Shown: positions 21,597 to 58,865 of the stretch, piece by piece
Numbering within the stretch: position 1 is the stretch's first letter
Layout: each line of letters begins with the position of its first letter
Assembly (NCBI GenBank): GCA_025617745.1
Contig: CM046866.1
Location: 15,941,725 to 16,005,724, forward strand
DNA length: 64,000 nt
Direction of reading: 5' to 3'
DNA from: Heliocidaris erythrogramma
Lineage: Eukaryota > Echinodermata > Echinoidea > Camarodonta > Echinometridae
Translations under genes and position numbers: made by a program
The notes under the pieces: model-generated
Databases searched by the model: none
The model's input: only the letters and a program-made list of their open reading frames with translations
Told to the model about the DNA's origin: nothing

Positions 21597-21666
21597 ATGA
21601 AGTTCTTTTGGGGATTGTTCATGCTGTTTTGCATCAGAATACTGACAAGTACAACCGCTAACCAGG
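21597..21666 (+). CDS. Gene A exon 1: signal peptide
   Basis: ATG at 21597 opens MKFFWGLFMLFCIRILTSTT, a hydrophobic signal sequence, followed by ANQ and a donor (CAGG/GTGAGT) in phase 1. This start was chosen because the next exon enters in the matching phase to give VEARLKAALF, a classical beginning of a mature Cys-loop subunit. Confidence 0.75.
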
Positions 21667-24600
21667 GTGAGTTTTCGTGGTCTCTTTTTTTAATAATATC
21701 GAAAGAAATTTAACTCCTTGCTGGTTTAATATAATATGATTGCCCATGGAATGCTTGGTCAAGGAGGAAATGAGTCTGTGGTTGACTGTTTAAACATTCA
21801 TCCCTGTCATCGCTGAAGGTATATTTTATCGTTTATAAAGAAAATATTTGCTTTATTTTAATTCGTCGTTTATTTTATTTCAAACAGTTGAAGCTCGTTT
21901 AAAAGCGGCTTTGTTCTCCAACTATGACAAGAGTCTTCTACCAACCCATAGCAAGACTAATGATGTCTATATGAGACTTGGGTTGAGCAACCTGAAAGGA
22001 CTGGTTAGTCAATTCCTTGCAAATCAATTACAATTTGGCGACTATTTTTTTTTTTTTTTTACATTGAAGTGTTTTGTATAGGACTGAGATGGCAAAAAAA
22101 AATCTTTCCTGTACAAATGATAAAGAGACCGGTCGTCTAAAAAGAATGGCATTTTGGACCCTTCCCATTTAAATGTTTTGGACTAATAATTTTTATACAA
22201 AGAAACTGAAATAGCAACCGATCGAGTGTTAGAAATATCAAGCCCCGCTCACACGATGCGTCAATTCGACTGCGTCAGTACCTGGGCTAATCAAGCCTGT
22301 GAAGAAAATTAATTCATACGCCAATTATTCAAAGTATTGTTTGCACATTTTGTTTGTTCATTTTGAAATCGCTTTTAAAACAATATCATGCATCCTTTCA
22401 TGATGCGCAAAAGTCCGTACAATTCACCGACGCCAATCTAACGTCAGCAAAAGACGCCTCGTGTGAACCGGGTTTAGACTTATACTTTTTTAATGCGTTA
22501 CGCGTACAGTACACACAATTTACAATTTCGTGTACCTTCTACGATTGCTCAACACCAAAGTAGGTAACTAGGGGTAAGGTGGGTAAACAAGTTGCAGCAC
22601 AATTTGCTATTATCGGATAGAGTTTATGGCGGGCGAATGTGCTTTTTCGATGTTTATTAGTTTTATATTTTCTTTTCGATCAAACGGCCCTCAAATCACA
22701 AATGGACCTGGCCTCAAGCCAAAATATCGAGCGGCCCATTGGGAAAACTCCCCCCCCCCCCCCCACCAACGCCCCATGGCCAGTCCGCCCCTGATCTTTC
22801 TGCCGCCTTATTTATTTTCCTTTTGCCTCTGCAGGATTTTTTTCAAGGAGCCATTCAAATGAACGTATGGTTAAAGATCGTAAGTACAGTGAATAAGCAG
22901 TTTGACCTCAACAACTTTATCAAAATCACCTAAATCTAATTCTGCTGGTATGATTTGCTCTTAATTTGATATGTTGATATCCAAATATGTTATTGGATGA
23001 CGGAGCATGGATATTTTTTCTTCTAAAGCTTAAGTCTCACTAGGCGAACGACCGGTTGCCGACTTCCGACAACCACCATCCCGAACACTTTCATGAAATC
23101 AACTCAAAGGTAATTTTGGTTGTATTGCCTATTGAAAAATAATTTTGCTTGTAAGAGAGATGATTTCATATATGGACCACATACTTTCCAGCCAATTGTA
23201 GACATGGGAAAGACATATTGGCTGTTTCTCCTTCATGAGCTTCTCCTTCATGAGTGATATATCCAGACATCCTTGAATACATCGTTGCTTTGCACCCATA
23301 CAATTATTTATTATTCATGTTATTCATGTATTCCAATAATTGGTGACCTATTCGTCATAACCTGGCATAAATATATAACTCATTCGGGGTCCGCTCGCTA
23401 TTCATAGAAAAACCGCTATTCATTTAACACGCGTTATGAATAGCGGTCCTTATGAATGGAGGTCCTAATGAATAGCGAGGTAATTTGTCTATGGTTTGCT
23501 TGCTATTCATAAGGACAACTATTCATAGAAAACCGCTATTCATTTAATCACGCGTTATGGATAGCGGTCCTTATGAATAGGTTGTCCTTATGAAAAGCAG
23601 TCCTTATGACTATCGAGGTTACCTAATTCATACAGCTTTGCACCGGGGATTCATAGCCTTCCCGTTAATTGCCGACTGCCGTAAGAACATCGGCCATCAG
23701 CTCGTCTACGATCGGTTGTTTATAATCGCCGAATTGATGACCGTTCCTACCAGCGGTGGTCAATCAGTTTTTGATGATCGGCGATGGGCCTACAACCGAT
23801 TGGCGACTATCCTACAATCGATCGGTAACTAATAGCGGACAGATGTTTTTTGCAGATTATTTTTTTGTTGGTTGTCAGAAGTCCGAAAGCGGTTGTAAGG
23901 CCAGTGAGACTAATGGCTTAAAACATGTCACAACTTTTAGGGTTGAATAGCTTTTCGAACTTTCTAAATGTTCATTATTATTGTCTCTATTTTGCTTATA
24001 GGAAGTAATCGGACTATTCTTTTTCAATAGTCAGAATTCAAATTGCATGTATTACGCTTTTTTAGGTTGGAAATCTTTTGGGCTTGTCCGACTTAGTATG
24101 TGACTATTGGAATACAATGACTTGTAACAGGTGGATACAATAGTTCATTACTAGGAGTTTTACGAAGAGGTAAACATTTTTTGATGCATTACGAAAATGG
24201 CCCATTTACACAGAATATATGAAATCATGAACCTTTTCAGTCGTGGGTGGACTCGCGTTTGGTGTGGGATTTGGCAGAATATGGAAATATCAGTATCTTC
24301 CGCGTCCCTTCCTCGGAAGTCTGGGTTCCTGACATCACTCTGTACAACAGGTAGGCATAATATTAATAGTCATAAGCATCGATTTGGGAAAATGGAAAAT
24401 ATTAAGTGGTAGTTAAACAATAAATCAAAGGTTAGTCAATGACAAATCGATGGTAAGTTAATGGTAAGATTTGGGGCATTAAAGTTCATCTGTGGTACGT
24501 CAATGACGGTCACTGTTTTAGGGTTAATTATAGATTCATGGTACATTAGTGATGGGTCAATCGTCGGTTGAACTTGTAGGTAAATATGAAAGAAATTAGA

Positions 24601-27600
24601 CGGTCTATTTGTCAGGGTAATAATACTCCTTTGTAGGCGCCTTGAGCATCCTCTGGGATGGATACGCGCGCAATATAAATATAGCTATTATTACTATTAT
24701 TTCGAGGGTTCTGAACAAGATATTAATCAAATATACCTTGCACTGAGAGGCTCCAGTTGAAATTATGGATTCTCTGAGGTGACTGGTATAGGCCTAGCAC
24801 TATTTTCTGAGGGGCGCAGCCCCGAAGAAAATAGTAGCTATGCCAGTCACCGAAGAATCCATAATTCAACTGGTGCCTCGAAAAGCGTGCATGGTATATT
24901 TGATTTATATCCTACCAGAGTAAGCTTAGACAGATAAACTCTGCTAAACAATAATAAAACTAAAGAATCTAGACCTAGTCCTAGACCTAGTCTAGACTCT
25001 ATATGAAATGTATACAACTCACCATATTTGCCCAAAGTCACAAAAGATGCCTGGCCATTGGCATGGCTTGTAAGTATTGTCTATAGTCTATTATATCCTA
25101 CATCATAAAATTCTCATGCAAAGATTGGCCAGGAATGTCTCACGTGACACAAAATACTTTCACCATGAAGAAAAAATGGATATCGCGTGACGTCAGACCT
25201 CCGTATATTTTTCGATATAAAAATATTATGACGTCACTTTTTTGTTTTTCTGGATATTTCGAAGCTATCGTTATCGCGACAATATATCGTGATAATGTTT
25301 CTGCGTTAGCGCTGAGAGCCCGGGGGGGGTACTCACGTATATTGGGTATACGGGGACGTGCCGCTGGGAAGGGTGACTTTTTGAAGAAAGATCCTTAGAC
25401 ATGGGTCCCCTTTTCATTAAAAATCCTTAGACATGGGTCCCATTTCCCCAAAAAAAATCCTTAGACATGGGTCCCATTTCCCCAAAAAAATGTTGTCCCT
25501 ACCCCCCCCCCCCTATTTTCTTCGGGGCTGCGCCCCTCAGAAAATAGTGCTATACCAGTCACCTCAGAGAATCCATAATTTCAACTGGAGCCTCTCAGTG
25601 CAAGGTATATTTGATTACTGTAGATCTAGATCTACATGGTACAAATCACACGATGAAACCATTTAAACAATGTAAACTTGAAACCTGAACTTTTCCCCAA
25701 GTCAAAAGTCTGAAAGAGAGGCTAATAGACCCCTTCTCGTAAGCCTGTGTTGTAGATTTACATGGCACTCAAAATCCAACGCTAGCGCTGGTACGTGGTC
25801 GACTCGAGCGGAGATGAACGTGCATGTAGGGCCTAGGGTCATCTGCACTTCACTACGCGCATGTACACACATACGTACATTGAGTATGAGCTAGCGGCTC
25901 TCTCAGCCAGCTCTCAGCGCTAACGCAGAAACATTATCGCGATATATTGTCGCGATAACGATATAGCTTCGAAATATGCAGAAAAACAAAAAAGTGACGT
26001 CATAATACTTTTATATCGAAAAATATACGGAGGTCTGACGTCACGCGATATCCATTTTGTCTTCATGGTGAAAGTATTTTGTGTCACGTGAGACATTCCT
26101 GGCCAATCTTTGCATGAGAATTTTATGATGTAGGATATAAATCTATTTAGTAATCATCAAGTTACTATATTTCAAAATTAATGTATCAACACTTGGTTAA
26201 CATCTTAAACATTCATTCAAAAGGATAAGAATTTAAAAAAAAACACGAGCTTCCCTACAAAAGTCAAGCTCGGTTAAGAGGTTTTTGGTTTTGGAAGTTT
26301 TAGTGTCTCTCACAAGACACCAGGATAAATATGGCGTCTAATATTTATCACATGTTTTGTTTCATACCCCTAGCCATTCGCCAAGTGAAACATTGGCCGA
26401 TGTTTCACTTTTGCTGTACAACGATGGCACCATCTTCTATCTTCTACCCATGTCGATTGAAGCAATCTGTACGCTTGACCTGAGAGATTACCCCTATGAC
26501 AGCCAAGTAAGAACTGGAAAACAGTTCAAATCATGTAACCAATTAAGGAAAATACATTTTAGCCTTTGGAGACAAGTTCCACTGTGATATTTAAGGAGAA
26601 GTCCACCCTGGCATCAAGCTGATTTGGGTAAATGCGAGAAAAATGAGAGAAACAGATTAGTTAAAGTTCGAGTACAATCCATTTCGAACAGGCTTCTTAA
26701 TGTAGACGAAAAGTTGATCAGTTGTCTCACGATGTGTAAACGAGGAAAGCTACGACGTTTCGACCGCTACTGCTAGTCTTCGTCAGGCAATGAGTATAGA
26801 CAAAGCATAGACTTCGCTGCGCGCGCGTTATATAGCAGCGGCGGGGGTCCGGGGCATAGGTCCGGGGAGCCCGGGGGAGCCCGGGTGCGTGCTATTGTTT
26901 GTCTCTACTCGGGCGCTGTGATTGGTCTGTGCCGCTGACCAATCAAATAAATAAGACAAAAAGTGTCTCCTAAATACACCGTACATTGGTGTATATATTA
27001 TGTGCGTGTGTGTGTGTGTGTGTGTCTGTGTGTGTGTAGGCCTAAATAACATATACAGCAGCTTTGGCAACTCTTGTGGAAATAATATAATTTTGAGAAA
27101 TGAAAATGAGAGAATTATGGCTTAAATCAAAGTTCCCCCGAAAAGTCCAACAAAAAATATCGGAATCAATTCAAGTTCCGCCGAGAAAAGTCCAACAAAA
27201 AATATCGGAATCAATTCAAGCTAACGAACATATAATAGGGGTTTTCTGAGACTTGTCTAAGGCATTCGATTCTATGGATCACTCAATTCTTCTATTTAAA
27301 CTGTATCAATATGGAATAAGAGGGATTGCATCAGATTGGATTAGGGACTATCTTTCAAACATAATTCAACTTACGTTTGTTCACAGTACATTATCTTCTT
27401 CCTTAAATGTCTCTATTGGGGTACCTCAAGGAACAATACTGGGTACCTTGCTCTTTCTTATGTACATAAATGACCTTTCTAAATCATCTAGTTTATTAAA
27501 CTTCTATCAAATTGCTGACGACACTAGTGTATTTTTTTCGTCTAAAAAAATTGATTAATACTGTCCATGTTTTAAATAGTGAGCTTGAGAATATATCTGA

Positions 27601-30600
27601 CTATTATGATATCAAACATAGCTAACACTAGTGGTCCCTTAATTAATACTGATTATATTTCCATTTATATTGATAATAAACTTATTCCATTCAGTAACTC
27701 TCTTAACTTTTTGGGTGTCACATTGGATTATTTCTTGGGAATTTAAAGACTATATCATAAATGTTTTACGCAAGTTTTACACAGTAGAAATACTGGTTTA
27801 ATAAATAAGCTGAAATATAGTTTGTTACCGGAAAATTTAATAACATTATATCATTCCATTATCTTTCCTTATTTGAAATACTCTCTTGGATTGGATGGGA
27901 TACAAATGCAACTCAAACTGAATTAGACACATTATTTTAAAATTCAAAAGAAATGTTTAAGAATAGTTACTAATTTTGTCTATTTAGCGCCATCTGCTCC
28001 TATTTTAAAGAAATTATCATTATTGCATATATCTGATATAAGTAAGCAAGAAATTGCAACGGTCATGTATAAATATAAAGATAGGTTATTACCTACCCCC
28101 CTTTTAGACATCTTTCAATATAAAAGTCAAGATCATAATTATAATACTAGATCTTTAAACAAATTTCATTTATGGTCCATTAAATCAAGTCATGAAGCTA
28201 AGTCAATGAGTTACATAGGTCCTAAAAATTGGAATATTATTCCCCATGACATAACAAAATCACAATTTGTATCTTCCTTTAGAAATCCCTTTAGGAAACA
28301 ATATAAAATATTATTAGTAAATAATTAATTATCACAGTTAATTATGATGTTATATTCCAATTTCCTTACATTTTTTTTCTTCTTCTTCCCCTTTTTATTG
28401 TTTGTTTTGTTTTTTATTCTTTGTTGTTGTTGTGTGTGTTTAGGTTCATTATATTGTTTTTGTGCCTAAAATAATTTTGTTCTGTTTTTCTATTGTCTAA
28501 TGGGCGATCCAAATTCTACAGGTTTTCTAACCTTCATGGAAAGCCCCGCATGATTTTGTATATGTATTTTAATCTATTGTTACCGTGCATATTGATTTTA
28601 TCTTGCGAAATAAAATTGAATTGCATTGAATTGAATTGAATCGAACCCGGGTCGTTGGCATAGTACGCCAATGCCTTAACCACTAGACCACGGAGACGGG
28701 CCAGTGGTTTTCGGCGACATCAGATTCAATTGACCGACAGATTGACAAATCTTCAACCTCATTTATTAATTCCTTTATCGGGGGCATTTCTCACAACCTT
28801 GATATTTCTTCGTACAGAACATAATATTCTTCATCAGATTTCTACAAACTGTCTCTCTCTATTTCTACTTTTATCCCCCCAAAATGATATCACAATGGAC
28901 TTCCCCTTTAAAGCACAATAAAATATCCACTAAAATGGGCACACAAATTATGCAGCGGGTACACGAAGCATAGGAGATTTTTGGTAGGGGACAGGTGCCC
29001 CGTATGCCCCCTCCTGGATTCGGACTGTACATAATTGAATATACCAGATACTTACCAAGTACATTCCTAGATGTTTGTTTTTATCATTGGAGGAGGCACA
29101 TCTTAAGCAGTGTTAATGATATACAGTAAACAAAGAAAAAAATAAGTACATATGTATATGCATAATGCATAGAATAAAAGGAAGAGCTGATTATAGAACA
29201 ATACGTGGATGGTGAGAAAAGGAAGGGAAAGATTACTAAACGGCCATGCCCCTTGTGTCTACATAGCGTGTGTTTGAGGCGCGGATAATTCAATAATACT
29301 ATTCACCCTATTTGAACATAGGACTGCCGCCTGAAAATGGGCTCATGGACGTTTGACAACTTCAAAATAACCCTCAACCCATCGGCAGATAAGATTGATT
29401 TGGAGGATTTCCATCAGCACCCTGTGTGGGAACTCGTCAGCACATCAGCTGTGAAGAGGGCTGTCGCCTACAGATGTTGCGCAGATGCATACGAGAATAT
29501 AACATTCCACCTTACTGTCCGCCGAAGAGAGAGTCATGGTCAAATCGCCTCCTCCGTGATCGCGATATGGCTGATCCTAATCGTCTTCCTGATCGGGCCG
29601 TCGTCGGCGGGAGAACGGATCATCTTCGCAAGTTTCGTCTTTGTCGCCTTGGTGGTGTTGTCTGCAGCGCTCAGTGAAGAGGTCCCCGCCCTCTCGGTGA
29701 CAAGACTTGGTCGGTTCCTGATCGGAGGGATGCTGATTACCGCTGTCGTGATCGTCGTCAACGGCCTCATCTACCGCTTCTACTCCAAGGACCAGCCAGG
29801 ACACTTGAAGGTGAGGGGATGTACCCATCATATTGCATGCCTCTCCTCTTCTTCCTGTAGTTGACTGCTACCTTTTACCACTTGTTTTTGCGGGGGGGGG
29901 GGGGATGGGGGAATGTTTCCAGATTTTCACTGAAAAAAAAAGAATACCCCCCCCCCCAAAAAAAAAAGAGAAGGTTTTAATGGCAGATCACATCATCTGC
30001 CTACTGTTCTCTGCACTGAGTGCAATGAATTCTTTAAAGGAAAATTAACCTCAAAAAATAAAGACAATAGTGTTCAAAGGTGTTATTTATTCCTACTTGT
30101 AAGACTATATGGCTTCGCGTCAAAATATACGAGATCGATACGAATCAAGATTTTCTGAGCAAAATTTATCATCTGCTAGTAATATGTATCGTCTGCTAGC
30201 AGTACATGGGGGCTGCCATTTTTTTATGTGTACATGAAAATTTTCTTAATCCAAATGTCCAATAGGGCGGTTTACGTAGTGATTCAAATTTATGGATGTT
30301 TCTTTCCTGGGGACCTAGTAACGAGGTATTCCATTAACCTGTTATTAATGAATGAACTACAATACTTGGAATCCAGTTTGCATACATTACTTGTTGCTAT
30401 GTCGGGCAAGCCTCGGGCAAGCTTTCAGGTTGTCAAGAACAACCTTTGTTTCAAAAGTATGCATAAAATTTGAATCACTACGTAAACCGCCCTATTGCCT
30501 TTTTCAAAATTAAAAACCCATTTGAGATTAAAAATATAGAATAGATATGTCAATTTATTTTTAAACTGAAGATTTCCTTATATATTTCTGTTGAAAATCG

Positions 30601-31433: not shown

Positions 31434-31472
<39 letters not shown>

Positions 31473-31552
31473 TGTTCCTGTTCATCGACATCGGAGCGTT
31501 TCTGGTTACCGTCATCATCCTCGCGATATCAACGGGCAACCTTTTGGCCTGA
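21597..31552 (+). CDS. Gene A: nAChR-like Cys-loop channel subunit (7 exons)
   Basis: A pentameric ligand-gated ion channel subunit of the nicotinic acetylcholine receptor type, in the plasma membrane. Exons: 21597-21666, 21888-22003, 22835-22879, 24241-24350, 26374-26506, 29322-29810 and 31472-31552, all with GT-AG introns and consistent phases; 347 residues. A signal peptide covers about residues 1-22. Binding loops: W74 (loop D), WVPD at 105-108 (loop A), GSW at 165-167 (loop B), Y208, vicinal C210-C211 and Y215 (loop C). The Cys-loop runs from C146 to C160 with 13 residues between. M1 about 233-249, M2 258-275, M3 288-308, M4 322-343. The family average is about 450-550 residues; the shortfall is the M3-M4 loop, here about 10-14 residues. 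E256 at -1' predicts cation selectivity, but the pore lining is hydrophobic. M1 lacks the usual Pro-Cys. Ligand and partners are unknown. Gene B is its inverted paralogue. Confidence 0.88.
21888..22003 (+). CDS. Gene A exon 2: N-terminal helix and beta-1
   Basis: Acceptor CAAACAG, donor GTTAGT, 116 nt. It encodes VEARLKAALFSNYDKSLLPT, then a short variable segment, then RLGLSNLKGL. This matches the 'L...LF..Y+k..RP' start of nAChR ectodomains. Gene B exon 2 (58750-58865) has the same length and phase. Confidence 0.85.
22736..22830 (+). repeat. C tract and C-rich piece in gene A intron 2
   Basis: A run of about 14 C begins at 22750 and is followed by pyrimidine-rich DNA that leads straight into the branch/polypyrimidine region of exon 3. 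Pro-rich frames across it are artefacts. Confidence 0.5.
22835..22879 (+). CDS. Gene A exon 3: loop D
   Basis: Exactly 45 nt between CTGCAG and GTAAGT, encoding [16 protein letters not shown] 45-nt exon at this position is characteristic of nAChR genes. W74 in 'NVWL' is the complementary-face (loop D) aromatic residue. Confidence 0.88.
23386..23623. repeat. CTATTCATAAGGACCGC-family element, copy 1 (gene A intron 3)
   Basis: It begins GGGGTCCGCTCGCTATTCAT and ends ATCGAGGTTACC. It is packed with inverted copies of ACCGCTATTCAT and ATGAATAGCGGT around a GCGTTA/TAACGC core. Other copies lie at 36990-37203, 52814-53044 and 58616-58715. It is a non-coding DNA-transposon-like family. Confidence 0.75.
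24241..24350 (+). CDS. Gene A exon 4: loops D and A
   Basis: 110 nt, the standard nAChR exon 4 size, between TTTTCAG and GTAGGC; leaves phase 2. It encodes SWVDSRLVWDLAEYGNISIF followed by [16 protein letters not shown]. It carries the 'W.D.rL.Wd...Y' strand and the loop A 'WvPDi.LYN' signature. Confidence 0.9.
24351..24570 (+). repeat. Degenerate minisatellite after exon 4 of gene A
   Basis: Directly after the donor, the intron contains diverged units around CAAATCGATGGTAAGTTAAT. A similar degenerate array follows exon 4 of gene B (53045-53245, minus strand). The first bases of both introns also match (GTAGGCAT), so this stretch predates the duplication. Confidence 0.5.
24632..24703 (+). 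repeat. SINE 3'-end fragment
   Basis: TTTGTAGGCGCCTTGAGCAT, a further 'GCGCAATATAAAT' and a final ATTATT-rich tail match the tail module of the SINE family at 32160-32476. It is heavily 5'-truncated and sits in intron 4 of gene A. Confidence 0.5.
24725..24906. repeat. Foldback MITE in gene A intron 4 (unit a)
   Basis: Two arms of about 75 bases containing GACTGGTATAGG / CTATGCCAGTC and the matching 'tccataatt' words face each other across a small inner hairpin, GGGGCGCAGCCCC. A half copy, complementary to the left side, is at 25513-25617. Confidence 0.6.
25091..26140. repeat. Inverted repeat with about 230-bp arms, gene A intron 4 (unit b)
   Basis: The left arm (25091-25322) and right arm (25910-26140) are close reverse complements. 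They share GTGACGTCAGACCTCCGTAT, TATCGCGACAATATATCG and GCGTTAGCGCTGAGAG. The interior holds the half copy of unit a (25513-25617). Three tandem copies of about 39 bases, each with ATCCTTAGACATGGGTCCC, lie at 25390-25495. It is non-coding and probably a palindromic DNA transposon relic. Confidence 0.7.
26374..26506 (+). CDS. Gene A exon 5: loop E and first half of Cys-loop
   Basis: 133 nt between CCCCTAG and GTAAGA. It encodes SHSPSETLADVSLLLYNDGT, then strands ending SIEAICTLDLRDYPYDSQ. C146 is the first cysteine of the Cys-loop; the second, C160, is the second codon of exon 6. The 'D.R.YP.D.Q.C' pattern matches the family ('DvryFPFDeQ.C'). Confidence 0.9.
26700..27060. repeat. TTCGTCAG-type repeat fragment and (GT)n
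   Basis: 26745-26795 holds the words GACGTTTCGACCGC and TAGTCTTCGTCAGGC. A similar 'CTTTCGATCCTAGCAGAATC...TTCGTCAGAGG' stretch lies at 19968-20015. A (GT)n microsatellite lies at 27001-27036. Intron 5 of gene A. Confidence 0.5.
27140..28619 (+). pseudogene. CR1/L2-type LINE, 5'-truncated and broken
   Basis: A non-LTR retrotransposon fragment in the sense direction of gene A intron 5. It shows DLSKAFDSMDHSIL (RT motif A), GVPQGTILGTLLFLMYINDL (motif B region) and ADDTSVFF (motif C; the usual YADD/FADD reads IADD). A stop codon interrupts the frame just before motif A, and a frameshift in an A run (near 27543) ends it after 'SSKKID'. The C-terminal part resumes at 28023-28328 with 'NYNTRSLNKFH' and 'IGPKNWNIIPHDI', the standard CR1-like tail. 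A (TTGAA)n-like 3' end closes the element near 28619. It cannot encode active enzyme. Confidence 0.8.
28620..28705 (-). repeat. tRNA-like sequence (Pol III A and B boxes)
   Basis: Read on the minus strand: TCTCCGTGGTCTAGTGGTTA (A-box region), a TTGGC/GCCAA anticodon-type stem with a 7-base loop, then CCCGGGTTCGATTC (B box). The 3' acceptor strand is missing because the sequence runs directly into the tail of the LINE that ends at 28619. It is a truncated tRNA-derived SINE head or a tRNA pseudogene, not a functional tRNA. Confidence 0.55.
29322..29810 (+). CDS. Gene A exon 6: Cys-loop end, loops B/F/C, M1-M3
   Basis: 489 nt (163 codons) between AACATAG and GTGAGG, phase 0 at the end. It opens DCRLKMGSWTFDN (Cys-loop end and loop B). 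Then come the loop F region, AYRCCADAY (loop C with vicinal cysteines), VRRR at the M1 boundary, M1, GPSSAGERI (the M1-M2 linker with E at -1'), M2, and M3 ending IYRF. The cytoplasmic KDQPGHLK closes the exon. The transmembrane half is more GC-rich than the rest of the gene and nearly identical to gene B. Confidence 0.92.
29811..30030. other. Gene A intron 6, proximal part
   Basis: Intronic DNA with a G tract near 29890-29904 and a C tract near 29946-29957. No further feature was seen. Confidence 0.5.
30033..31158. mobile_element. TIR element in gene A intron 6
   Basis: The ends CTTTAAAGGAAAATTAACC and GGTTAATTCTCCTTTAA are inverted. Further in, ACATGGGGGCTGCCATTTT (30206-30225) is mirrored by AAAATGGCAGCCCCCATGT (about 30991-31009). 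The arms are diverged over roughly 190 bases. Two related small MITEs sit inside (30264-30493 and a diverged one near 30655-30800). No transposase frame. Confidence 0.55.
30264..30493 (+). repeat. AGGGCGGTTTACG-ended MITE, copy 1
   Basis: Ends AGGGCGGTTTACGTAGTGAT and its complement form a TIR of nearly 30 bases. The core has TTTCCTGGGGACCTAGTAAC and GGTTGTCAAGAACAACC. A close copy with altered ends is at 48418-48649 in intron 6 of gene B, and a 3' fragment is at about 59048-59095. Confidence 0.8.
31437..31471 (+). repeat. (CT)n acting as polypyrimidine tract of exon 7
   Basis: About 34 bases of CT repeats run directly into the AG acceptor of gene A exon 7. In gene B the same acceptor is not repetitive and the exon starts 27 bases earlier relative to the M4 codons. 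The repeat has therefore probably expanded over the original exon start. Confidence 0.7.
31472..31552 (+). CDS. Gene A exon 7: M4 and stop
   Basis: 81 nt in frame: LFLFIDIGAFLVTVIILAIS, then TGNLLA and TGA. This is the M4 helix. Gene B exon 7 encodes a longer start with a hydrophilic [10 protein letters not shown] before the same M4. Confidence 0.85.
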
Positions 31553-35215: not shown

Positions 35216-35375
35216 TTATTATTTACCCAGAATATATAATTTGTATTTTGATTGATTTATGGAAATAAAACTAAACTGAAATTTTTAATTTGTAAACAAA
35301 TCTTTCGGCATATTACTCCCAGTGTTAAAGATCGTATGCTCGATCTGTAATGAAAAACACAAGTCAGAAAAAATT

Positions 35376-35448: not shown

Positions 35449-35633
35449 ACGGCCAAGTCACGACGAACTAGAATCAAATACCCCAAGATCCTCTTCTTTC
35501 TGACTCATTAATATTCAAACGGTCCGCCGTGGACAATGGTTAGTAAACGAAGAAGCTTGACTGTTTGAATATTAATGAGTCAGAAAGAAGAGGATCTTGG
35601 GTATTTGATTCTAGTTCGTCGTGACTTGGCCGT

Positions 35634-47674: not shown

Positions 47675-47782
47675 TTAGGCGAAGAGGGCGCCCGTTGATA
47701 TCGCGAGGATAGTGACGGTAACCAGGAACGCAAGGATGTCGATGCCCAGGTACACCCGGGACTTTGAGCTGCCGTCTCCCTC
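47675..47782 (-). CDS. Gene B exon 7: post-M3 loop, M4, stop
   Basis: 108 nt after acceptor ATATACAG. It encodes [20 protein letters not shown], then [15 protein letters not shown] and TAA. The hydrophilic start is absent from gene A. Confidence 0.88.
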   Translation of the reverse strand, partial: EGDGSSKSRVYLGIDILAFLVTVTILAISTGALFA

Positions 47783-50700: not shown

Positions 50701-53700
50701 CTGTCATAGTGACACTGGAACCGTTCAGGAGATTGCTGGTAGGAGCAAAGATGGAGGCAGAATTAGAAGAGGGGGTTTTCTGCTCGCACACAAACACTTC
50801 ACACTTCCCTGGTTTAAATGACCCAGATTGTGGCTTTCACATGCAGTAAAGCACTCTACGAAGAGGACTGTACTTTAAAGACCTCAGCCTGACCCAAAAC
50901 AACCATATATTGACGTAAAGCTTAGTAAACAAAGAATATAATTACCCTGGGTATTCATAAATTTTCGTCTCCGTTTATCCATAAAAAATAAAAAAAGATA
51001 ATTTTTTTTGGTCCGCCCCCTCCCTATGGCGTAACAACAGAGGAAACTGGAGGGGGTCGCTAGACGTGTGACGACATGTCATGTATACAGCTCCGAGTGC
51101 GTCTACACGATATGTCGTCATCAAATTTTCACCCCCCGCAAAGTAGCGTTCCTCAGAGACGGGGCCCTCGTCAGAAAAACCACCGGGACTCAACATTCGG
51201 GACGCTGTTACTCATTCCACAGGAAACGGAATCTCATGAAGTTGGTTTCAATTTGTTCAGAAAATATATAGCTCCCCGTGGATGAATAAAGGGTATATTT
51301 CAAAATTCGGTCAGGCTGAGGTCTTTAACCGAATGAAGAAGAAGGCGATGAATAAAAGAAAAGAAGAAGAAGAAGAAAGAAAGAAAAAGGAAGAAGGAGG
51401 AACAAAAAAATTTCCATGCACCTCTCCTTATGTTTTATACGAAAGACTTATCAAAAATATCCCAACATATTTCCGTATTTTGTACAATGATGAAGAAACG
51501 TGCTTGAAAACGTCGATACGTATTTCTATTATGCTCACAAGAGAACTATTGGATTGTCCTTGAACTTTAACTGCATGATCTGTTTCTCCCAGTTTTTTTC
51601 TCGCATTTACCAAAAATTAACTTAATGCCAGAGTGGAAATCTCCTGAAATATTAAGGCACCATAGTGGAACCTTTCTATAAAACTTAAAATGTAATTTCC
51701 CAGCCTACATCATTTGAAGTGTTCTTACATGGCTGTCGTAGGGGTAATCTTTGAGGTCAAGGCTACAGACTGCTTCAATCGACATGGGTGGAAGATAGTA
51801 GACGGTGCCATCGCTGTACAGAAGGGCTAAAACATCGGCAAGTGATTCACTCGGCGAATGACTAGGAGTACGAAACAAACATGCGATAAAAAAATTAGCC
51901 GATGCCAGTAACTCAAATTAATATTTGCACTGTTCATTCACTTTTTTTTGCATGGCATCACTTTCATATTGTGCCTGAAGCAGTCCTACGACAGGAAAAG
52001 GACACCCCGGGGGCGTTTCATCAAGTGTCTTGTCAGTGATTTTAACCCACAAATTTGCTCTCAGCCAATTAGATGCAAGTATTTCAGTAGCTTATAACAG
52101 TTACATGTATTGCAACTTGTCATTGATGACAGGTTTGATGAAGCAGGCCCCTTATGTGCAACGGGCATTAGAGGAATACTGACTTATTATGTAATGTGCA
52201 GAATCGCAACTGAATCCAGTGACTGGGGTAATAATGCTGTAAGCGCTTTGGTCGGTTACATCAAGGAGTTACACCTTGGTTACACTGTACCTGGTAAGAC
52301 GCTACATAAAAACAGCTATTATTATTATTATTATTATTATTATCATCATCATCATTACGCTCCCCGAGTCTCTAATAGTACTGACTAACAATGGACCTAC
52401 TACTGACCCACCACTGACCTCCTTCTGACCATACCCTAAGCATTGGATTACTGTTGAACTATAGCAATGTATTGAGAAAAAGCAGAACAATTACTACTCC
52501 CGCTATAAAATATCATTTATTTCACATTCTCTCCTATATGTAGCCTGTACAATGTGGTTCGACTCGATACCGTCAATAGCAGTTTTAGTTCTTGCAATGA
52601 AGAAAAGACCCCACTAAATGATAACATTTCAAAAAATGGCTCTTTAGTCATTTTTTTGAGTTGGAAAAAATGGCGGAGTTGTCTGCCGATACATCACAGT
52701 GACATTACTCATCCACAATTTCGAAATTCCAGTTCGTATAGCGATTTAACTTTTAGAAATATTAACTTTTTAATCATTCAGATCTTCGTTCAAATCGGAG
52801 TATCTGATTTTGGGGGGTCCGCTCGCGATTCATAAGGATCGCTATTCATAGAAAACCGCTATTCATTTAACACGTGTTATGAATATCGGTCCTTATGAAT
52901 AGTAATGAACAGTGGTCCTTATGAATGGAGGTCCTTATGAATAGCGAGGTAATTTGTCTATGGTTTGCTCGCTATTCATAAGGACGGCTATTCATTTAGT
53001 CACACATTATGGATAGGGGTCCTTATGAATAAGTGGTCGTTACCATCGATTTATCATCGACCTACCATCGACATACCAAGGAGCTAACATTGACTACAAA
53101 CGATTTACCTTTAATTTACCATGAGTTAACAGTGACTTACCATCGATTTACAAATGAGTTACAACTGAGTTCACATTAATTTACCTTTACACTACCACTT
53201 ACGTGCCATTTACCCCAAACCAATGATCAGGATTATCATGCCTACCTGTTGTACAGAGTGATATCAGGAACCCAGACTTCCGAGGAAGGGACGCGCAAGA
53301 GACTGATGTTTTCATATTCTGCCGGATCCCACACCAAACGTGAGTCCTGCCACAGCTGAAAAAAAGTTATGACTACTGATAAAAACGAATTCTATTCTTT
53401 GAAAATCCAGTTAGATGAACATGAATTAAGCTAATAATTTTGAAAAAGTAGACATTTTAAAATGAATTCAACCATAATTGTTGGGGAAGGATGAATTTGA
53501 CAAAATTACCAAAAGATCAAAGCTCCGTCATCCAATATCGTATTTGGATATTTACATGTCATATTAAAGGAAAAATTTTGAGCTATCATACCCACAAAAT
53601 AGATTTAGGTGGTTATTTGGTAATTGGTTTGAGATAATGTGTGTGTGTATGTGTGGGTGTGTGCGTTTGTTTAGCATTATGTCCGAGGACATTTTCGGAC

Positions 53701-56700
53701 AGAGAACAAAAAAAAAATCATGACAACAATGGTCCTCGGAAGCCGGACAATAGTCCTCGAACGTCGAACAATGAATTTGTGCTTTATTCCGTCGACTGTC
53801 CGAGGACGAGTAACAATAGAGGAACAATAGTTGTCCTCGGAAGTAAAGCCATGTAAACGTGTGTGTGTGTGTGTGTGTTGGGGTAATTATATGTTTCCTT
53901 TTTATTGACTCAAACTGTATATTCACTTTACTTACAAGTTTTAGCCATACGTTCATTTGAATAGTCCCTTCAAAGAAATCCTGCAGAGACAAAAGAAATA
54001 AAAAGTTAATGAAGCAGTAAGATGAAAATATATTAATATTTGTATGTATGTGCTACCAGTCCGACGATGGCATGAATAAGCCAGTTCGTAATTACAATTT
54101 GCGCAGGTGCAGATAAAGGTCATTTGTACCGAGTACATTAATTTTGATCTCTATACGCTGTCATTGTAGTGTATAATGATGTTTCTTCAAATTTCCTACC
54201 AATCCAATGCGGTGTTCCACAAGGGTCAATACTAGGCCCTTTACTCTTTCTATTATATATTAATGATTTAACAAATACAACGCCTCTTTTATCTTTCATA
54301 TTATTTGCAGATGACACAAACATTTTCTGTTCACATAATTTAAATACCCTTGTAAATACACTTAATAATGAGTTACCAAAATTATCTTTGTGGTTCAAAT
54401 GCAATAAATTGTCCCTTAATTTAGATAAAACCAATTTCATGTATTTTAAGCACGTAAAGTCTCAAGTCATTGATTTTCCTTACGACATACTTATAGATAA
54501 TGTACCTCTTGAAAGAAAGATACAAACAAAATTTTGGGCGTCATTATCGATGAAAATTTATATTGGAACGAACATATACGTCATATAACTGCTTCTATTT
54601 CTAGGAATGTTGGTATACTTTACAAAGTAAAGAGATTTGTCATTATGATTTATAATTCATTGATATTACCATATATAACATAATTGCAATTTAGTATGGG
54701 CCACCACCAACAAAACAAAAATCAACTCTATTTACTTATTACAAAAGAAAGCCCTTCGCATATGTACTGGTTCACCATATTTATCTCACACTAGACCAAT
54801 ATTTTACCAACTGAAAACTCTAACAGTATTCGACATCAATTCACTACAAAGTTTACTGTTTATATTTAAGTATCCAAATAACTTGCTCCCTCTTTCATTT
54901 CAAAACTGTTATAATTTAAATAACACTATTCACTCCTACCCTACTCGCAATTCCTCCAATTTTCATCTTTTCAACCCAGAATTACTAATTGCCCATAGAT
55001 CAATAAGACACCATGGTCCAGACATATGGAACTCTCTCCCAGAATTCATTAAATCCTGTTGTTCCCTTTATTTAAAGCCAAAGTTAAAACGATGTTACTA
55101 TCTGAATATACAACGTAAGTTTCTGTGTAAACTCTTCATCATCATCATCATCATCACCGTTATCATCATCATCATCATCATCATCACCATTTTATCATCA
55201 ATATGCTCTTAACTTAGGATTTCAATTATTTATCCATTCTGCTTATTTGAACATGTTTTAGCTATTTCACAATATTTGTCTGGGCTGCCATATTCTCAAG
55301 CAAACTGCTTATAATGGCAGTCCTTCTTCCGCTAATGATTTTATATGTTATGAATTTGACAATTTATCATTTCGTGTTTTTTTTTTGAAAAAAGATTGTT
55401 ACATATACATGTACTTGTTTATGATTCAATGTCAAAAAGTACTCTTGTATTTTATTTTATATACATTACCGAAAAATGTTGTACTAATATGAATGCAGAA
55501 GAAAATAAATCAAATCAAATTATGTGCGTACCATAATGTGCGCGCTATTAAGATTTTACATGATAAACAAGCAGCGTGTCCACAAAAACAGATGCGGGTG
55601 CGCGTACAAATTTTGGTCAAATGAGGTCATTTTTCTACCATGACTTATAAATTACGAACTAGCTTATTGAAACATTTCGAAAATATTAAAAATCCATGCG
55701 GGACCCGTAAAAAAAAGAAGAATTCGTAATCGGTTGATATTTGATCAATTTTCCGGAAAATCCATTTTCGTAATGCATTCATGGACAATGATTACCTTTT
55801 TGTCAAACTCCTAGCAATAAACTATTACATCCACCTGTTACAAGTCATTGTATTTCAATAGAATGCAGATTGCATGTACATTAGGTGTTGCTAGGTTGGG
55901 AAAGCCAAAATGTTTGTCCAACCTAAAAACGCCTAATACATGCAATTCACATTCTGATTATTGAAAACAAGAATAGGTTTTTAATGTAATAGTAGGGTAT
56001 CTAAGAGGGGTATCCGTGCACCCCCCCCCCCCCAGGACTAAACGAAACCAATTTTTTTAACTTCTTCATAATACGCTTAAAAACATTCAAGATGTTAACA
56101 AGAAAAAAAAGTGGCCCCGAATAGGAAAATCAAGGGGGCGTCAAGGTGGTCAAAAAATGCCCTTTTCAAATTTTGTTGAGAGGTCCTTTTGTACTATCGT
56201 CACATTTTGACCTGTAACATTCTCTATGGTGATCAGATTGGTATGAAAATTGTAGCGTTATTGCCAGTACTGTTCTACACATTTTGATATAAAAAATATA
56301 TCCATATCAAATGTATGTTGCCATGACAACAGTTATCATGAATGAAAATCTAACTAGAACAGAAGAATTTCATATTTTTTTCAAAGAAAATTGCTTAGAC
56401 ATGAAAACAATCACTTCAGTATGAGTTTGATGCAATATTCATGGTGTTTAATGACATTTCCTATCACTTTGAAACATATATTGATAAAAGGAACTCAATT
56501 GCATTTTCGCATAGTAATATTTTATGCGTATTACAAACCTATTGTTTTCGCGTATTTTTCAAGATTTCGCAGTCTTTATGCATTAAGAATACGGACAGCT
56601 TCATTTTAACCTGCAACCCTGTTTTGTGATAATCTGATTATAATAAAGCTTGATGTTGATGTGTGTACCCATATGTCACTCATTTTGACACAGGTTATAT

Positions 56701-58865
56701 CTGTTGTCATGACAACCATTGTTATAACTGGTAAACTCACTGCCCCCCCCCCTTTTTTGCGTTTAGAATTACCAAGAAGGACGTATTACGGTATCTAAGA
56801 GAGGTATCCGTGCACCCCCATACTAAACGAAACCGACTGTTTTAACTTCTTCATAGTATGCTTAAAACATCAAAATGTTAACAAGAAAAAAAAGGTGGCC
56901 CCTCTTAAAAGAGTTGGTTTCGTTTAGTCCTGGGGGGGGGGGGTGCACGTATACCCCTCTTAGATACCCTACTATAATAGTTTGTCATGGGACAAACGTG
57001 CATACCTTTGAATACATTACGAAAATGCCCATTATAATTGACAATTGATCGTCTTTTTATGACATCTCGAATGGACGCGTTCCCAGCGAGAAGTCCAATG
57101 AACGCGCCACTTCGAGACAACCGGGGGGGGGGGGGGGGGGGCTTTCCTCGAATGGGTGTGTTGAGTAGACTTTTGTAACAGACGTTTTAGAGATTTTTGA
57201 AAAATGTACTCTTGCTGGTTTTTTCGTTTTTCTTTTGTCTAAGATGTAGAAAATATAATAAAACAGTATCTAAAAAAAGCTTTTGACAAGGAAATCATTA
57301 TTTGTGCAAAATAAATAGGAGAATTGAATAATTATGCATTAAAACACACAGGGACGAACGGGCAAGTGGCGTTGCTAGGATTTTTAATTTATTTATTTTT
57401 ATTTTTTTGGCGTGACCTGTTAAATATTATGAAATTGTGTTACAGACATGTGCTGACATAAGCCAAGGTGTGTTTATCATCTTTCCAAAGTTAGAAACAC
57501 CTTTTAATGCCATCATTCTATCAATAACCACTATCAAAAGTCAAAATGCATATCAAAAGGTCGTTTGTACCCGGCCCCCAACTCCCCATACAAGGGGTAG
57601 GCCTATGCTCGTACCTCCTTTTCAAAAATGACCCCCTATCCCGGAGAAGTTGGAATTTGTTTTACCCCCCTATCCCGGGGAATTTTCTGAGATATTGGAC
57701 CCCCTATCCAGGCAATTTAGGAAATTAACCCCCCCCCCTCCTGTCCCCGGGAAGGAAACCACCAGAGTCTGCGAAAATTGACCCCTATTTACATTTTCCC
57801 GGGAATATGTTTTCATCTTCCTCATTCATCTTCCTCACTCATCTTCCTATTTTTTACTCACCCACCAATAAGGGGTGGGCATGGCAATCTTGTGCCCCCC
57901 TGTAAATAAACGGAGGTACTTACCTCATTTTTCATGCTTTCAGCGATACCAGCGGGGAAATGTGGAATTGCCATAGTCTCAAGACAAGTCGTTACGTGTT
58001 ATTTAAATTCATTGCAAAAATTAATAACGATCGATCGCTGTGAATCAAGCTCTAATAGCGTTTGATTGAAGGGAGGCTTTGTGTTACGGATTTTAGCGAT
58101 TGATTGCCATTAGCGCTTGATCGGAGTTTAGCGATTAATCGCTAAACACTCTTTATGTTACGGGGCCCAGGTCACGCCAAACAAAAATAATAATAAATAA
58201 ATAAATACAAAAATCCTAGCTACGCCACTTGCCCTTTCGTCCCCGTGTGTTTTAATGCATAATTATTCAATTCTCCTATTTATTTTGCACAAATAATAAT
58301 TTCCTTGTCAAAAGCTTTTTTTAGATGCTGTTTTATTATATTTTCTACATCTTAGACAAAAGAAAAACGAAAAAACCAGCAAGAGTACATTTTTCAAAAA
58401 TTTCTAAAACGTCTGTTACAAAAGTCTACTCAACACACCTATTCGAGGAAAGCCCCCCCCCCCCCCCCCGGTTGTCTCGAAGTGGCGCGTTCATTGAAAT
58501 TCTCGCTGGGAACGCGTCCATTCGAGATAACCGGGGGGGGGGGGGGCTTGTCTCGAAAGTGTGTGCCCGTTCCCGCTCCCATCCCGCTCCCGCAACCCAC
58601 CCATTCGAGACAAGCCCCGCTCGCATAAGGACCGCTATTCAGTTAACACGCGTTATGGATAGCGGTCCTTATGGTCTTTAGGAATAGCGGTCCTTATGAC
58701 TAGCGAGGTTACCCCGAAATTATAAGTGATTGAAAAGAATTTGACTAACCAGTTCTTTCAGGTTGCTCAATGTCATTCTCATTAAGACAGTGAAATTCTC
58801 GTTACGGGTGGGTAGAAGACGCTTGTCATAGTTTGAGAACAAATCCGCTTTCAAACGAGCTTCAA
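47675..58865 (-). CDS. Gene B: nAChR-like Cys-loop channel subunit (6 exons found)
   Basis: Paralogue of gene A in the opposite orientation. Exons, in transcript order: 58865-58750, 53980-53936, 53355-53246, 51861-51729, 50030-49542 and 47782-47675, with GT-AG introns and the same phases as gene A. The signal-peptide exon expected upstream of 58865 was not found. Conserved features: loop D 'NVWLKL', loop A '[11 protein letters not shown]', Cys-loop from '[14 protein letters not shown]' to 'DC', loop B 'GSW', loop C 'YPCCAEVY', and E at -1' in 'GERI'. M2 is hydrophobic as in gene A. The M3-M4 loop is about 20 residues, longer than in A. Substitutions cluster in the extracellular domain (for example W/Q and L/P changes in exon 4, and loops F and C), which suggests different ligand preference. 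Exon 6 gives a full 163 codons; no disabling change was seen, so the gene is probably functional. Confidence 0.85.
48240..48335 (-). repeat. LINE 3'-end fragment
   Basis: On the minus strand: AACAATAAATCAAAATCAAA followed by TTAAATCAAATCAAA. This resembles the (ATCAA)n-type LINE tails near 32710 and 55505. Gene B intron 6. Confidence 0.35.
48418..48649 (+). repeat. AGGGCGGTTTACG-family MITE, copy 2
   Basis: Ends TAGACCTGTTTACTAAGTAA and its complement. The core is almost identical to 30264-30493 (TTTCCTGGGGACCTAGTAAC, GGTTGTCAAGAACAACC). It is in intron 6 of gene B, but reversed relative to the gene compared with the copy in gene A, so it probably inserted independently. Confidence 0.8.
48650..49139. 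other. Gene B intron 6
   Basis: AT-rich intron DNA with a C tract of about 27 (with one A) around 48890-48920. No further feature. Confidence 0.5.
49140..49317 (-). repeat. C-rich dispersed repeat, reversed copy
   Basis: On the minus strand: CCAGTGGCGGATTTAGGGGG, then TTACTTGTCAGAGAATTGTG, then GCACTGAGCGACTTTTGGAG. Same module order as 16855-17135. Confidence 0.75.
49542..50030 (-). CDS. Gene B exon 6: Cys-loop end, loops B/F/C, M1-M3
   Basis: 489 nt, the same length as gene A exon 6. It begins [20 protein letters not shown], carries [10 protein letters not shown] in loop C, VRRR before M1, GPSSAGERI before M2 and ends KDQPGHLK. Relative to gene A, the first 66 codons differ at about 21 positions and the last 97 at only about 7. 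Confidence 0.92.
50031..50500. other. Gene B intron 5, proximal part
   Basis: AT-rich with a G tract of about 24 at 50240-50264. No gene is seen. Confidence 0.5.
50505..50790 (+). pseudogene. LINE ORF C-terminal relic
   Basis: In the plus strand one frame reads '[11 protein letters not shown]' and, after a stop, '[20 protein letters not shown]' followed by '[17 protein letters not shown]'. The pattern 'yK.SFFP.ti..WN.LP..v...ple.Fr..L' is the usual end of several non-LTR retrotransposon ORFs. It lies antisense within gene B intron 5. Confidence 0.45.
50791..51728. other. Gene B intron 5, distal part
   Basis: No exon apart from gene B exon 5 at its end. A GAAGAAGAAGAAGAAAGAAA purine run lies at about 51361-51400. 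Confidence 0.5.
51729..51861 (-). CDS. Gene B exon 5: loop E and first Cys of Cys-loop
   Basis: 133 nt between ACTCCTAG and GTAAGA. It encodes [20 protein letters not shown] and later [20 protein letters not shown]. Same boundaries as gene A exon 5. Confidence 0.9.
52007..52151. repeat. GTTTCAT-family foldback MITE
   Basis: GGGGGCGTTTCATCAAGTGT opens it and a complement ending GTTTGATGAAGCAGGCCCC closes it. The core GCCAATTAGATGCAAG is shared. Gene B intron 4. Confidence 0.75.
52196..52357 (+). repeat. SINE 3' half with ATT tail
   Basis: GGGGTAATAATGCTGTAAGC, then GCTTTGGTCGGTTAC, then ATAAAAACAGCTATTATT with a long (ATT)n/(ATC)n tail. It matches the SINE at 32160-32476. Confidence 0.65.
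52814..53044. repeat. CTATTCATAAGGACCGC-family element, copy 3
   Basis: GGGGTCCGCTCGCGATTCAT at the start, with multiple TTATGAATAGCG / CGCTATTCATAA modules; the right end is truncated or diverged (GTGGTCGTTACC). Gene B intron 4. Confidence 0.7.
53045..53245 (-). repeat. Degenerate minisatellite after exon 4 of gene B
   Basis: On the minus strand, diverged units such as TAAATCGATGGTAAGTCACT and TCGATGGTAGGTCGATGA repeat about eight times immediately after the exon 4 donor. Counterpart of 24351-24570 in gene A. Confidence 0.6.
53246..53355 (-). CDS. Gene B exon 4: loop D strand and loop A
   Basis: 110 nt between TTTTTTCAG and GTAGGC. It encodes [20 protein letters not shown] followed by [16 protein letters not shown]. 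The 'WDP..Y' here is closer to canonical nAChRs than gene A's 'WDL..Y'. Confidence 0.9.
53663..53861. repeat. CCGAGGAC MITE, copy 1, within GT repeats
   Basis: CGTTTGTTTAGCATTATGTC to GCCATGTAAACG, with imperfect inverted ends (CGTTT..GC.TTA..TCCGAGGAC) and several CCGAGGAC/GTCCTCGG words inside. It is bordered on both sides by GT-rich simple sequence. A nearly identical copy is at 62468-62666. Gene B intron 3; absent from the matching intron of gene A. Confidence 0.8.
53936..53980 (-). CDS. Gene B exon 3: loop D
   Basis: 45 nt between CTGCAG and GTAAGT, encoding [15 protein letters not shown]. Confidence 0.9.
54150..55520 (+). pseudogene. CR1-type LINE, 5'-truncated and broken
   Basis: Antisense inside gene B intron 2. 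It shows [20 protein letters not shown] (RT motif B region), FADDTNIF (motif C) and '[13 protein letters not shown]'. A frameshift in an A run (near 54530) shifts the '[15 protein letters not shown]' block to another frame, and stops follow. The last part (54883-55115) has '[11 protein letters not shown]' and '[16 protein letters not shown]', the normal CR1 tail. It ends in an (ATC)n run (55135-55200), an AT-rich 3' UTR and a final AATCAAATCAAAT. Confidence 0.85.
55700..55975 (-). other. Intron block shared with gene A
   Basis: On the minus strand this stretch matches the DNA just upstream of gene A exon 4 (about 24030-24210). Shared words include ATACAATGACTTGTAACAGG, TAGGAGTTT.AC.AA.AGGTAA and GCATTACGAAAATGG. 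In gene B it lies in intron 2, not in intron 3 as in gene A. Confidence 0.6.
55992..56972. mobile_element. TIR element with GTAGGGTATCTAAGAGGGG ends
   Basis: The left end GTAGGGTATCTAAGAGGGGT, followed by a C tract and ACTAAACGAAACC, is mirrored at 56923-56972. A second, direct copy of the left end (56788-56905) lies inside. Both direct copies continue with ATGTTAACAAGAAAAAAAAG. No transposase. Gene B intron 2. Confidence 0.65.
57065..58528. repeat. Inverted repeat with about 355-bp arms
   Basis: Arms 57065-57419 and 58168-58528 are reverse complements. They share TGGACGCGTTCCCAGCGAGA, a G/C tract, AGTAGACTTTTGTAACAGAC and CACACAGGGACGAACGGGCA-like words. The roughly 750-base spacer contains repeated 'CCCCCTATCCCGG'-type units (57620-57780). 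Non-coding; gene B intron 2. Confidence 0.8.
58616..58715. repeat. CTATTCATAAGGACCGC-family element, copy 4 (short)
   Basis: CCCCGCTCGCATAAGGACCG to CTAGCGAGGTTACCCC, internally deleted to about 100 bases. Its right end lies only 35 bases from the exon 2 donor side of gene B. Confidence 0.7.
58750..58865 (-). CDS. Gene B exon 2: N-terminal helix and beta-1
   Basis: 116 nt between TTTCAAGCAG and GTTAGT. It encodes [20 protein letters not shown] and ends LSNLKEL. The split first Val codon needs a G from an upstream exon, exactly as in gene A. Confidence 0.88.

Follow-up and report, generated by a model that had tools for sequence, protein, structure and literature searches.

A nicotinic-type receptor family with a hydrophobic pore lining in the sea urchin Heliocidaris erythrogramma: possible ligand capture without ordinary conduction

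Introduction

Can a receptor that keeps the agonist site of the nicotinic family and lines its pore with hydrophobic residues still work as a cation channel? The question is raised by a stretch of 64,000 nucleotides (nt) from Heliocidaris erythrogramma (GCA_025617745.1, contig CM046866.1, positions 15,941,725 to 16,005,724, forward strand), hereafter the window, which carries two facing nicotinic-type genes, A (+ strand, 21597-31552) and B (- strand, 47675-58865). An initial annotation of the window had proposed that both genes encode non-conducting or auxiliary subunits, or channels with a very different gate, in which ligand binding may persist without normal conduction. In the present analysis this interpretation is partly supported. 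We propose that A, B and their relatives form a ligand-capturing, non-classically conducting nicotinic branch, a reading to which we give a probability of about 0.45, somewhat short of an even chance; non-conduction is here inferred from sequence.

The pore lining of genes A and B

The whole proteins of A and B match Neur_chan_LBD (1e-51 and 2.1e-55, respectively), and full-length A finds its best PDB matches among nicotinic alpha subunits, with E 6.2e-47 to alpha-6. In both genes exon 6 encodes the membrane segments M1-M3 and exon 7 encodes M4, giving four membrane segments, and a weak AlphaFold model of exon 6 (two sequences; mean predicted local distance difference test score 51, predicted template modelling score 0.31) has three helices for M1-M3. 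By homology, A and B belong to the nicotinic branch of the Cys-loop receptor superfamily. The membrane segments and pore codons of gene A are as follows.

29544-29594, + strand: M1, in exon 6
29610-29687, + strand: M2 (-2' to 23'), aligned to solved subunits; Ile at 2', Phe at 6', Val at 9', Val at 13'
29613-29615, + strand: codon of Glu -1'
29622-29624, + strand: codon of Ile 2'
29634-29636, + strand: codon of Phe 6'
29643-29645, + strand: codon of Val 9'
29655-29657, + strand: codon of Val 13'
29703-29780, + strand: M3, in exon 6

The initial annotation had read Ile at 2', Phe at 6' and Val at 9' in both paralogues, and these residues were recovered at the codons listed above and again in B, which also shares Val 13'. 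The interval it had given for the pore, 29559..29634, overlaps M1 and the start of M2; it begins within M1 and ends on the first base of the 6' codon. At positions 2', 6', 9', 13', 16' and 17', the M2 of A has Ile, Phe, Val, Val, Ala and Ala, where alpha-7 (9qto) has Ser, Thr, Leu, Val, Leu and Leu. In all displayed alignments to solved nicotinic subunits (3, 2 and 5) M2 is free of gaps from the GE(R/K) motif to P23', and between 1' and 14' there is one polar residue in A and none in B.

A family of seven members

The genome of the same species (1.06 Gb, 26 contigs) was searched for relatives, and the counts of places given below are lower bounds. With exon 6 of A as the query at least 26 places were found; the next after A and B lie on contigs C13 (64% identity) and C19 (59%), while the places of members E and F, 45-50% identical to exon 6 of A, rank among ordinary receptors. 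An exon-by-exon comparison of the fetched loci gave seven members in all, A, B and the following five.

C13:15179769-15187984, - strand: member C, first exon not in the span
C19:21108866-21113251, - strand: member D, first exon not in the span
C14:44.32 Mb, - strand: member E1, one extra intron in M1
C14:44.64 Mb, + strand: member E2, one extra intron in M1
C13:15165459-15171342 (loci L027 and L028), - strand: member F, first exon not in the span, about 8 kb from C

The first exons of C, D and F and exons 1-2 of E1 and E2 come from script searches only, those of the E genes being unjoined. E1 and E2 are the product of a recent duplication, as near-identical inverted copies about 320 kb apart with 9 base differences in 302 codons; the M2 of both reads GERIVFAGFVFVSLVIISAWLSA.

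Six members (A, B, C, D, E1 and E2) share a hydrophobic M2, an M1 without Pro-Cys and a short M3-M4 linker. For comparison, 17 ordinary receptor loci were fetched from the same genome, of which L017 and L020 were dropped as the frame leaves before or within M2, so that 15 ordinary M2s were compared. Between 1' and 14' the six membrane members have 0-1 polar residues and the ordinary M2s have 2-5, without overlap. On any one helix face there is at most one polar residue in the members and at least two in the ordinary M2s, and a register shift as the cause of the hydrophobic lining was therefore rejected. The hydrophobic character of M2 is independent of register, and this part of the initial annotation is confirmed. 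The lumen positions of all six members are Ile, Val or Phe at 2', Phe at 6', Val at 9' and Val or Ile at 13', whereas the ordinary M2s are polar at 6' (15/15) and mostly at 2' (12/15), with Leu at 9' throughout (15/15). Glu at -1', described as kept, is present in A and B and in five of the six members, with Gln in C; among the ordinary M2s it is found in 11 of 15. One of the ordinary M2s is itself odd, with Phe at 2', Glu at 6' and Ala at -1' (locus L022, G000 C3:55075691-55079041), and lies outside the hydrophobic-pore branch on the tree.

The second membrane exon of E2 (end of M1 to M3), used as a genome query, found the six membrane members and nothing else at E<=0.01 (9 candidates scored). 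A genome scan with Neur_chan_memb found at least 79 places at E<=0.01 (121 candidates scored), with none of the six among them. In A and B this model scores 20.8 and 22.5 bits, below the curated cut-off of 28.1, and 23.7 bits in exon 6 of A alone. As the model misses all six, similar branches may lie unannotated elsewhere. No relatives were found in prokaryote genome contigs and viral contigs with an alignment of A, B, C and D as the query, and among the matches listed from the open-licence literature we found no report of a nicotinic branch with a hydrophobic pore and a short linker.

A tree of the ligand domain was built from the seven members and 13 of the 17 ordinary loci (L019, L024, L025 and L026 were left out, their frames being without the Cys-loop part). 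The seven members lie on one side of a branch with support 97/99, and F pairs with C (94/90). Nine ordinary loci stand on the same side as the odd branch, with weak support (57/93), and could be partners if the members are auxiliary or dominant-negative subunits, joining ordinary nicotinic subunits in heteropentamers and tuning or silencing these. CHRFAM7A with alpha-7 is a known pattern of this kind, and both faces of the agonist site are retained in A and B. We treat this explanation as a serious rival but consider it improbable: one pore type in six genes suggests assembly with one another, the members have no intracellular domain with which to join shared trafficking partners, and their membrane domain has diverged beyond the reach of the standard model.

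Other changes of the membrane domain

The absence of Pro-Cys from M1, noted initially for A and B, extends to all six membrane members and includes the Pro involved in gating. In a survey of 561 pentameric ligand-gated ion channels the M1 Pro was conserved in 77% and Leu 9' in 75%, and the Pro is described as a kink that moves in gating (both according to an excerpt of PMC4795631). M1 is three residues shorter in the members, with one extra residue before the M1-M2 Pro, and the M2-M3 linker is two residues shorter.

A further change, absent from the initial annotation, is the missing intracellular domain. The M3-M4 linker, measured in the family alignment between these two segments, is about 14-31 residues in the six membrane members (about 14 in A, 23 in B and 31 in E), and in all six the M4 exon follows in phase on exon 6 (6b in E), without a large intracellular domain. 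With exon 1 included, the proteins of A and B have 347 and 356 residues; among alpha-7 chains in the PDB, lengths of 502 and 512 occur. Hidden exons, taken as in-phase open stretches of at least 20 codons between an AG and a consensus donor, were sought in the exon 6-7 introns of five of the six membrane members (A, B, C, D and E2). No such exon was found in C (455 nt) or E2 (613 nt), and the 4, 4 and 1 in-phase open segments in A, B and D, respectively, have no similar peptide between genes.

By homology the members are thus nicotinic, yet their sequences fail the polar 2' and 6', Leu 9', M1 Pro and intracellular-domain features of ordinary cation-conducting receptors.

The ligand site and the coupling loop

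Seven positions of the agonist site were checked, in what we take to be the usual nicotinic numbering (W55, Y93, W149, Y188, C190, C191 and Y195). All seven are retained in A, B, E1 and E2, so that A and B have the vicinal Cys pair and the full alpha-type aromatic box (Y93, W149, Y188, Y195 and W55). The statement that all agonist-site residues are kept is therefore correct for A and B and does not extend to the whole family: C lacks W55, D has Trp in place of Y93, and F lacks W55 and has Phe in place of Y195. L119 is retained in A and B only. The Cys-loop of A (CTLDLRDYPYDSQDC) has 13 residues, as has that of B, and the Pro of the (F/Y)PxD motif is present in all six membrane members.

A retained aromatic box and vicinal Cys pair in nearly all members argue against a further explanation, namely that these are sensory receptors for a ligand other than acetylcholine, like the cephalopod chemotactile receptors, which derive from nicotinic receptors. 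Two observations favour it: the ligand domain evolves fast (dN/dS 0.55 between A and B, see below), and the squid receptor CRB1 appears in the list of weak PDB hits for the membrane part (E 0.76). Against it, the CRB1 hit is weaker than those to ordinary receptors. We regard a sensory role of this kind as a remote prospect.

A relative without a membrane domain

Member F has a signal-type first exon like those of C and A and an open frame through all modelled exons. It matches the ligand-binding domain (9.5e-41) without a membrane match, and it stops before M1, 17 residues after the pre-M1 RRR (TDGGTEDSTTTTSAVST). In its Cys-loop the hydrophobic YPY tip is deleted, which leaves 10 residues in place of 13 between the cysteines. 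Its best PDB matches are the extracellular domain of nicotinic alpha-2 and many soluble acetylcholine receptors, and its last exon as a genome query found at least 16 places, comprising the seven members and nine ordinary receptors.

When a neutral copy with about as many changes as F is simulated, its frame stays open in about 3-4% of cases. A codon-position test gave p = 0.04, 0.25 and 0.37 with B, A and D as outgroups; the same test has little power, giving 0.42, 0.16 and 0.068 for C as a control. The sequence evidence that F is functional is moderate. F may be an acetylcholine-binding protein that arose within the odd branch, probably secreted. Among the matches listed from the open-licence literature we found no report of an echinoderm acetylcholine-binding protein.

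Constraint on the membrane domain

The ratio of nonsynonymous to synonymous substitution rates (dN/dS) between A and B was computed by the Nei-Gojobori method with an own script. It is lowest in M1-M3 (0.19), reaches 0.55 in the ligand domain and is about 1 in M4. The synonymous rate drops from 0.31 in the ligand domain to 0.12-0.16 in M2-M3, and there may thus have been some gene conversion between A and B. Nine further member pairs, formed without E1, show 50-87% identity in M1-M3 as against 44-52% in the ligand-domain part, and M1-M3 is more conserved than the ligand domain in 10 of 10 member pairs. As a control, the 10 pairs of five ordinary receptors were compared; here M1-M3 is more conserved in six, equal in one and less conserved in three.

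These figures bear on whether the genes are decaying copies, in which M2 has drifted hydrophobic. The M4 ratio of about 1 between A and B and the weak selection signal in F would fit such pseudogenes. The stronger constraint on M1-M3 than on the ligand domain argues against decay, as do the canonical junctions and open frames in the modelled exons of all seven genes (exons 1-2 of E1 and E2 being unjoined) and an odd M2 common to six genes over deep divergence and better conserved than the ligand domain in all 10 pairs. Decay is very improbable as a whole; a pseudogene was rejected for A-E, and for F it is unlikely from the codon-position test and the neutral-frame simulation.

Possible ligand capture or a moved gate

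According to an excerpt of PMC6628796, a hydrophobic stretch of a pore can act as a barrier by de-wetting at radii up to about 0.4 nm, and with rings of Ile, Val or Phe at 2', Phe at 6' and Val at 9' the pore of the members should accordingly be dry. If the members form pentamers, positions 2'-9' would make a long hydrophobic plug that stays dry, and ligand would be bound without an ordinary cation current. The proteins would then serve chiefly to capture acetylcholine, or else a quaternary or choline-ester ligand related to it: A-E at the cell surface, as membrane-bound acetylcholine-binding proteins, and F outside the cell, as a secreted one. Under this mechanism the constraint on M1-M3 would come from tight helix packing, with mostly small residues at 4', 5', 15', 16', 17', 19' and 20' of M2, and from the need to keep the pore shut. 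Ligand capture is the most economical reading because the M1 Pro, part of the M2-M3 linker and the intracellular domain are gone and a membrane-less sister exists. The initial proposal of ligand binding without normal conduction is a reasonable lead, given the hydrophobic pore, the loss of Pro-Cys from M1 and the retained ligand site, which hold across a conserved family, and the membrane-less F. We hold more tentatively, as possible though doubtful, that these are surface ligand traps or non-ionic allosteric receptors, with a pore selected to be shut, the intracellular domain discarded and one member now a secreted acetylcholine-binding protein.

Several observations weigh against ligand capture behind a shut pore. 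The A/B substitution counts differ between ligand domain and M1-M3 (Fisher p = 0.007), and the constraint on M1-M3 is at odds with a simple dead pore. M2 is 69-92% identical among the members and the ligand-domain part 44-70%, although a pore that only has to be shut needs no exact sequence. R0' and P23' are retained in all six membrane members and Glu -1' in five, and the (F/Y)PYD tip of the Pro-loop, the coupling element between ligand domain and membrane domain, is retained in all six and lost only in F; its retention is expected if the ligand domain still works against the membrane domain. A hydropathy sum over 2', 6', 9' and 13' separates the groups incompletely, with -1.30 to -2.12 in the members and +0.40 to -0.85 in the ordinary M2s except L014 (-2.15, with Trp at 13'). 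The codon-position test on F, as given above, belongs on the same side, as does the bestrophin neck discussed below.

The very different gate suggested initially also stays viable, given the constraint on M1-M3 and a Pro-loop tip retained by all six membrane members. The members would then be working channels with a moved gate, in which the hydrophobic neck at 2'-9' widens on agonist binding and bulk has been relocated from the pore's outer half to its inner half. Small residues at 16', 17' and 20' would leave a wide outer mouth: 16' is Ala in all six and 17' is Ala in A-D (Trp in E1 and E2), where the ordinary M2s mostly have Leu or a larger residue. The low dN/dS of M1-M3 (0.19 vs 0.55) favours a working membrane domain, and the Pro-loop, the pre-M1 Arg and P23' are retained. 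A precedent for such a neck, with widening likewise proposed, is the bestrophin pentamer, in which Ile76, Phe80 and Phe84 form a hydrophobic gate in a chloride channel (PMC5555266, in part). Bestrophin-1 resembles the members in its narrow, Ile/Phe-ringed pore with a hydrophobic gate, if the members are assumed to be pentamers; it is an unrelated, calcium-activated chloride channel, and the analogy is one of pore lining only. An excerpt of the same paper annotates its wild-type neck as closed and gives a barrier for chloride of about 100 kJ/mol. Further points against a moved gate are that at most one polar residue (Ser) lies between 1' and 14', with no polar ring at the usual lumen positions, that the M1 Pro is gone, that the M2-M3 linker is two residues shorter and that the -1' charge is lost in C. 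We judge the moved gate unlikely, though it deserves to be taken seriously.

Should the ligand-capturing reading be correct, the steps from channel to binding protein would be visible in one genome. The working of pentameric ligand-gated ion channels is explained by polar rings around a water-filled pore, and the branch, with the inner half of its pore hydrophobic, tests how much of their machinery a membrane-bound ligand receptor needs. Acetylcholine-binding proteins are much used in pharmacology, and their origin from channels is, to our knowledge, unclear; C and F, membrane-bound and membrane-less sisters about 8 kb apart, make a natural before-and-after pair.

Comparison with known systems

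A and B resemble the neuronal nicotinic alpha-6, alpha-4 and alpha-7 subunits in the order of their elements, a Cys-loop of 13 residues, the YxCC..Y box, a gap-free M2, R0' and P23'. The members differ from these alphas in a hydrophobic 2' and 6', Val 9', Ala at 16' and 17' (A-D) and an M1 without Pro-Cys, and also in an M1 three residues shorter, an M2-M3 linker two residues shorter and no intracellular domain.

F is like the acetylcholine-binding proteins of molluscs, one annelid and a spider in having a signal-type exon, a ligand-binding domain only and an altered, hydrophilic Cys-loop. It differs in lying inside an odd nicotinic branch beside its membrane-bound sister C, in having lost W55, in Phe at 195 and in a Cys-loop shortened from 13 to 10 residues. 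Variable Cys-loops are described for molluscan and spider acetylcholine-binding proteins in part of a 2015 paper, according to which, apart from the spider protein it presents, the only such proteins on record came from molluscs and one annelid (PMC4569296). A-E keep a membrane domain, unlike acetylcholine-binding proteins, and their likeness is proposed for the working principle only.

GLIC and ELIC share with the members a short M3-M4 linker and no intracellular domain; they have polar residues in the lower pore. They differ from the members in having no Cys-loop cysteines (PMC4795631, in part). The short linker of the members appears to be a loss within a nicotinic branch.

Gene models of A and B

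Comparison of the window with itself (blastn) gave inverted exon-by-exon matches of A (+ strand, 21.9-31.6 kb) to B (- strand, 58.9-47.7 kb), and exons 2-7 of both genes were modelled from these mutual matching stretches and splice signals. All internal junctions are canonical AG...GT and the phases fit. Exon 1 of gene A came from a script search for hydrophobic start exons and lies 291 nt before exon 2. Exon 1 of gene B is beyond the end of the window, 15.6 kb upstream of exon 2, and is similar to that of A. First exons are called signal-type from resemblance and hydrophobicity.

21597..21666, + strand: gene A exon 1; signal-type peptide MKFFWGLFMLFCIRILTSTTANQ plus one base (phase 1), donor gtgagt; like the first exons of B, C and F
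21888..22003, + strand: gene A exon 2; ligand domain, N-terminal stretch, sharing 82% identity with gene B
22835..22879, + strand: gene A exon 3; 45 nt, Trp55 of loop D
24241..24350, + strand: gene A exon 4; loop A (WVPDITLYN)
26374..26506, + strand: gene A exon 5; loop E with the greater part of the Cys-loop (CTLDLRDYPYDSQ)
29322..29810, + strand: gene A exon 6; second Cys of the Cys-loop, loops B and C (YRCC), pre-M1 RRR, M1-M3 and the start of the short linker
31472..31552, + strand: gene A exon 7; M4 (LFLFIDIGAFLVTVIILAISTGNLLA) and stop, joined to exon 6 in phase 0
58750..58865, - strand: gene B exon 2
53936..53980, - strand: gene B exon 3; 45 nt, Trp55
53246..53355, - strand: gene B exon 4; loop A
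51729..51861, - strand: gene B exon 5; loop E and Cys-loop
49542..50030, - strand: gene B exon 6; loops B and C, M1 (49758-49808), M2 (49665-49742) and M3 (49572-49649)
47675..47782, - strand: gene B exon 7; remainder of the short linker, M4 and stop

An exon 3 of 45 nt is usual in nicotinic genes.

Other features of the window

A reverse-transcriptase fragment (RVT_1, 3.7e-12) lies in intron 5-6 of gene A (27250-27555, + strand) and another, recognized by eye, in intron 2-3 of gene B (54148-54588, + strand), with a further RVT_1 match at 34973-35215 (- strand). Between the two receptor genes a THAP domain runs across two frames at 41311-41713 (+ strand; 1.3e-8, and a second match of 0.004, below the cut-off); this stretch is probably a piece of a broken mobile element. 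At about 35250-35840 there is an inverted repeat with arms that code, one on each strand, for a common peptide (IGTSGIRTCHLLLAGQRLNHQAI...). At 49507-50009, long open frames accompany exon 6 of gene B in another frame (148 residues) and on the opposite strand (153 residues), which may be due to the high GC content of exon 6, 54-56% as compared with 31-42% in the 2-kb bins of the window.

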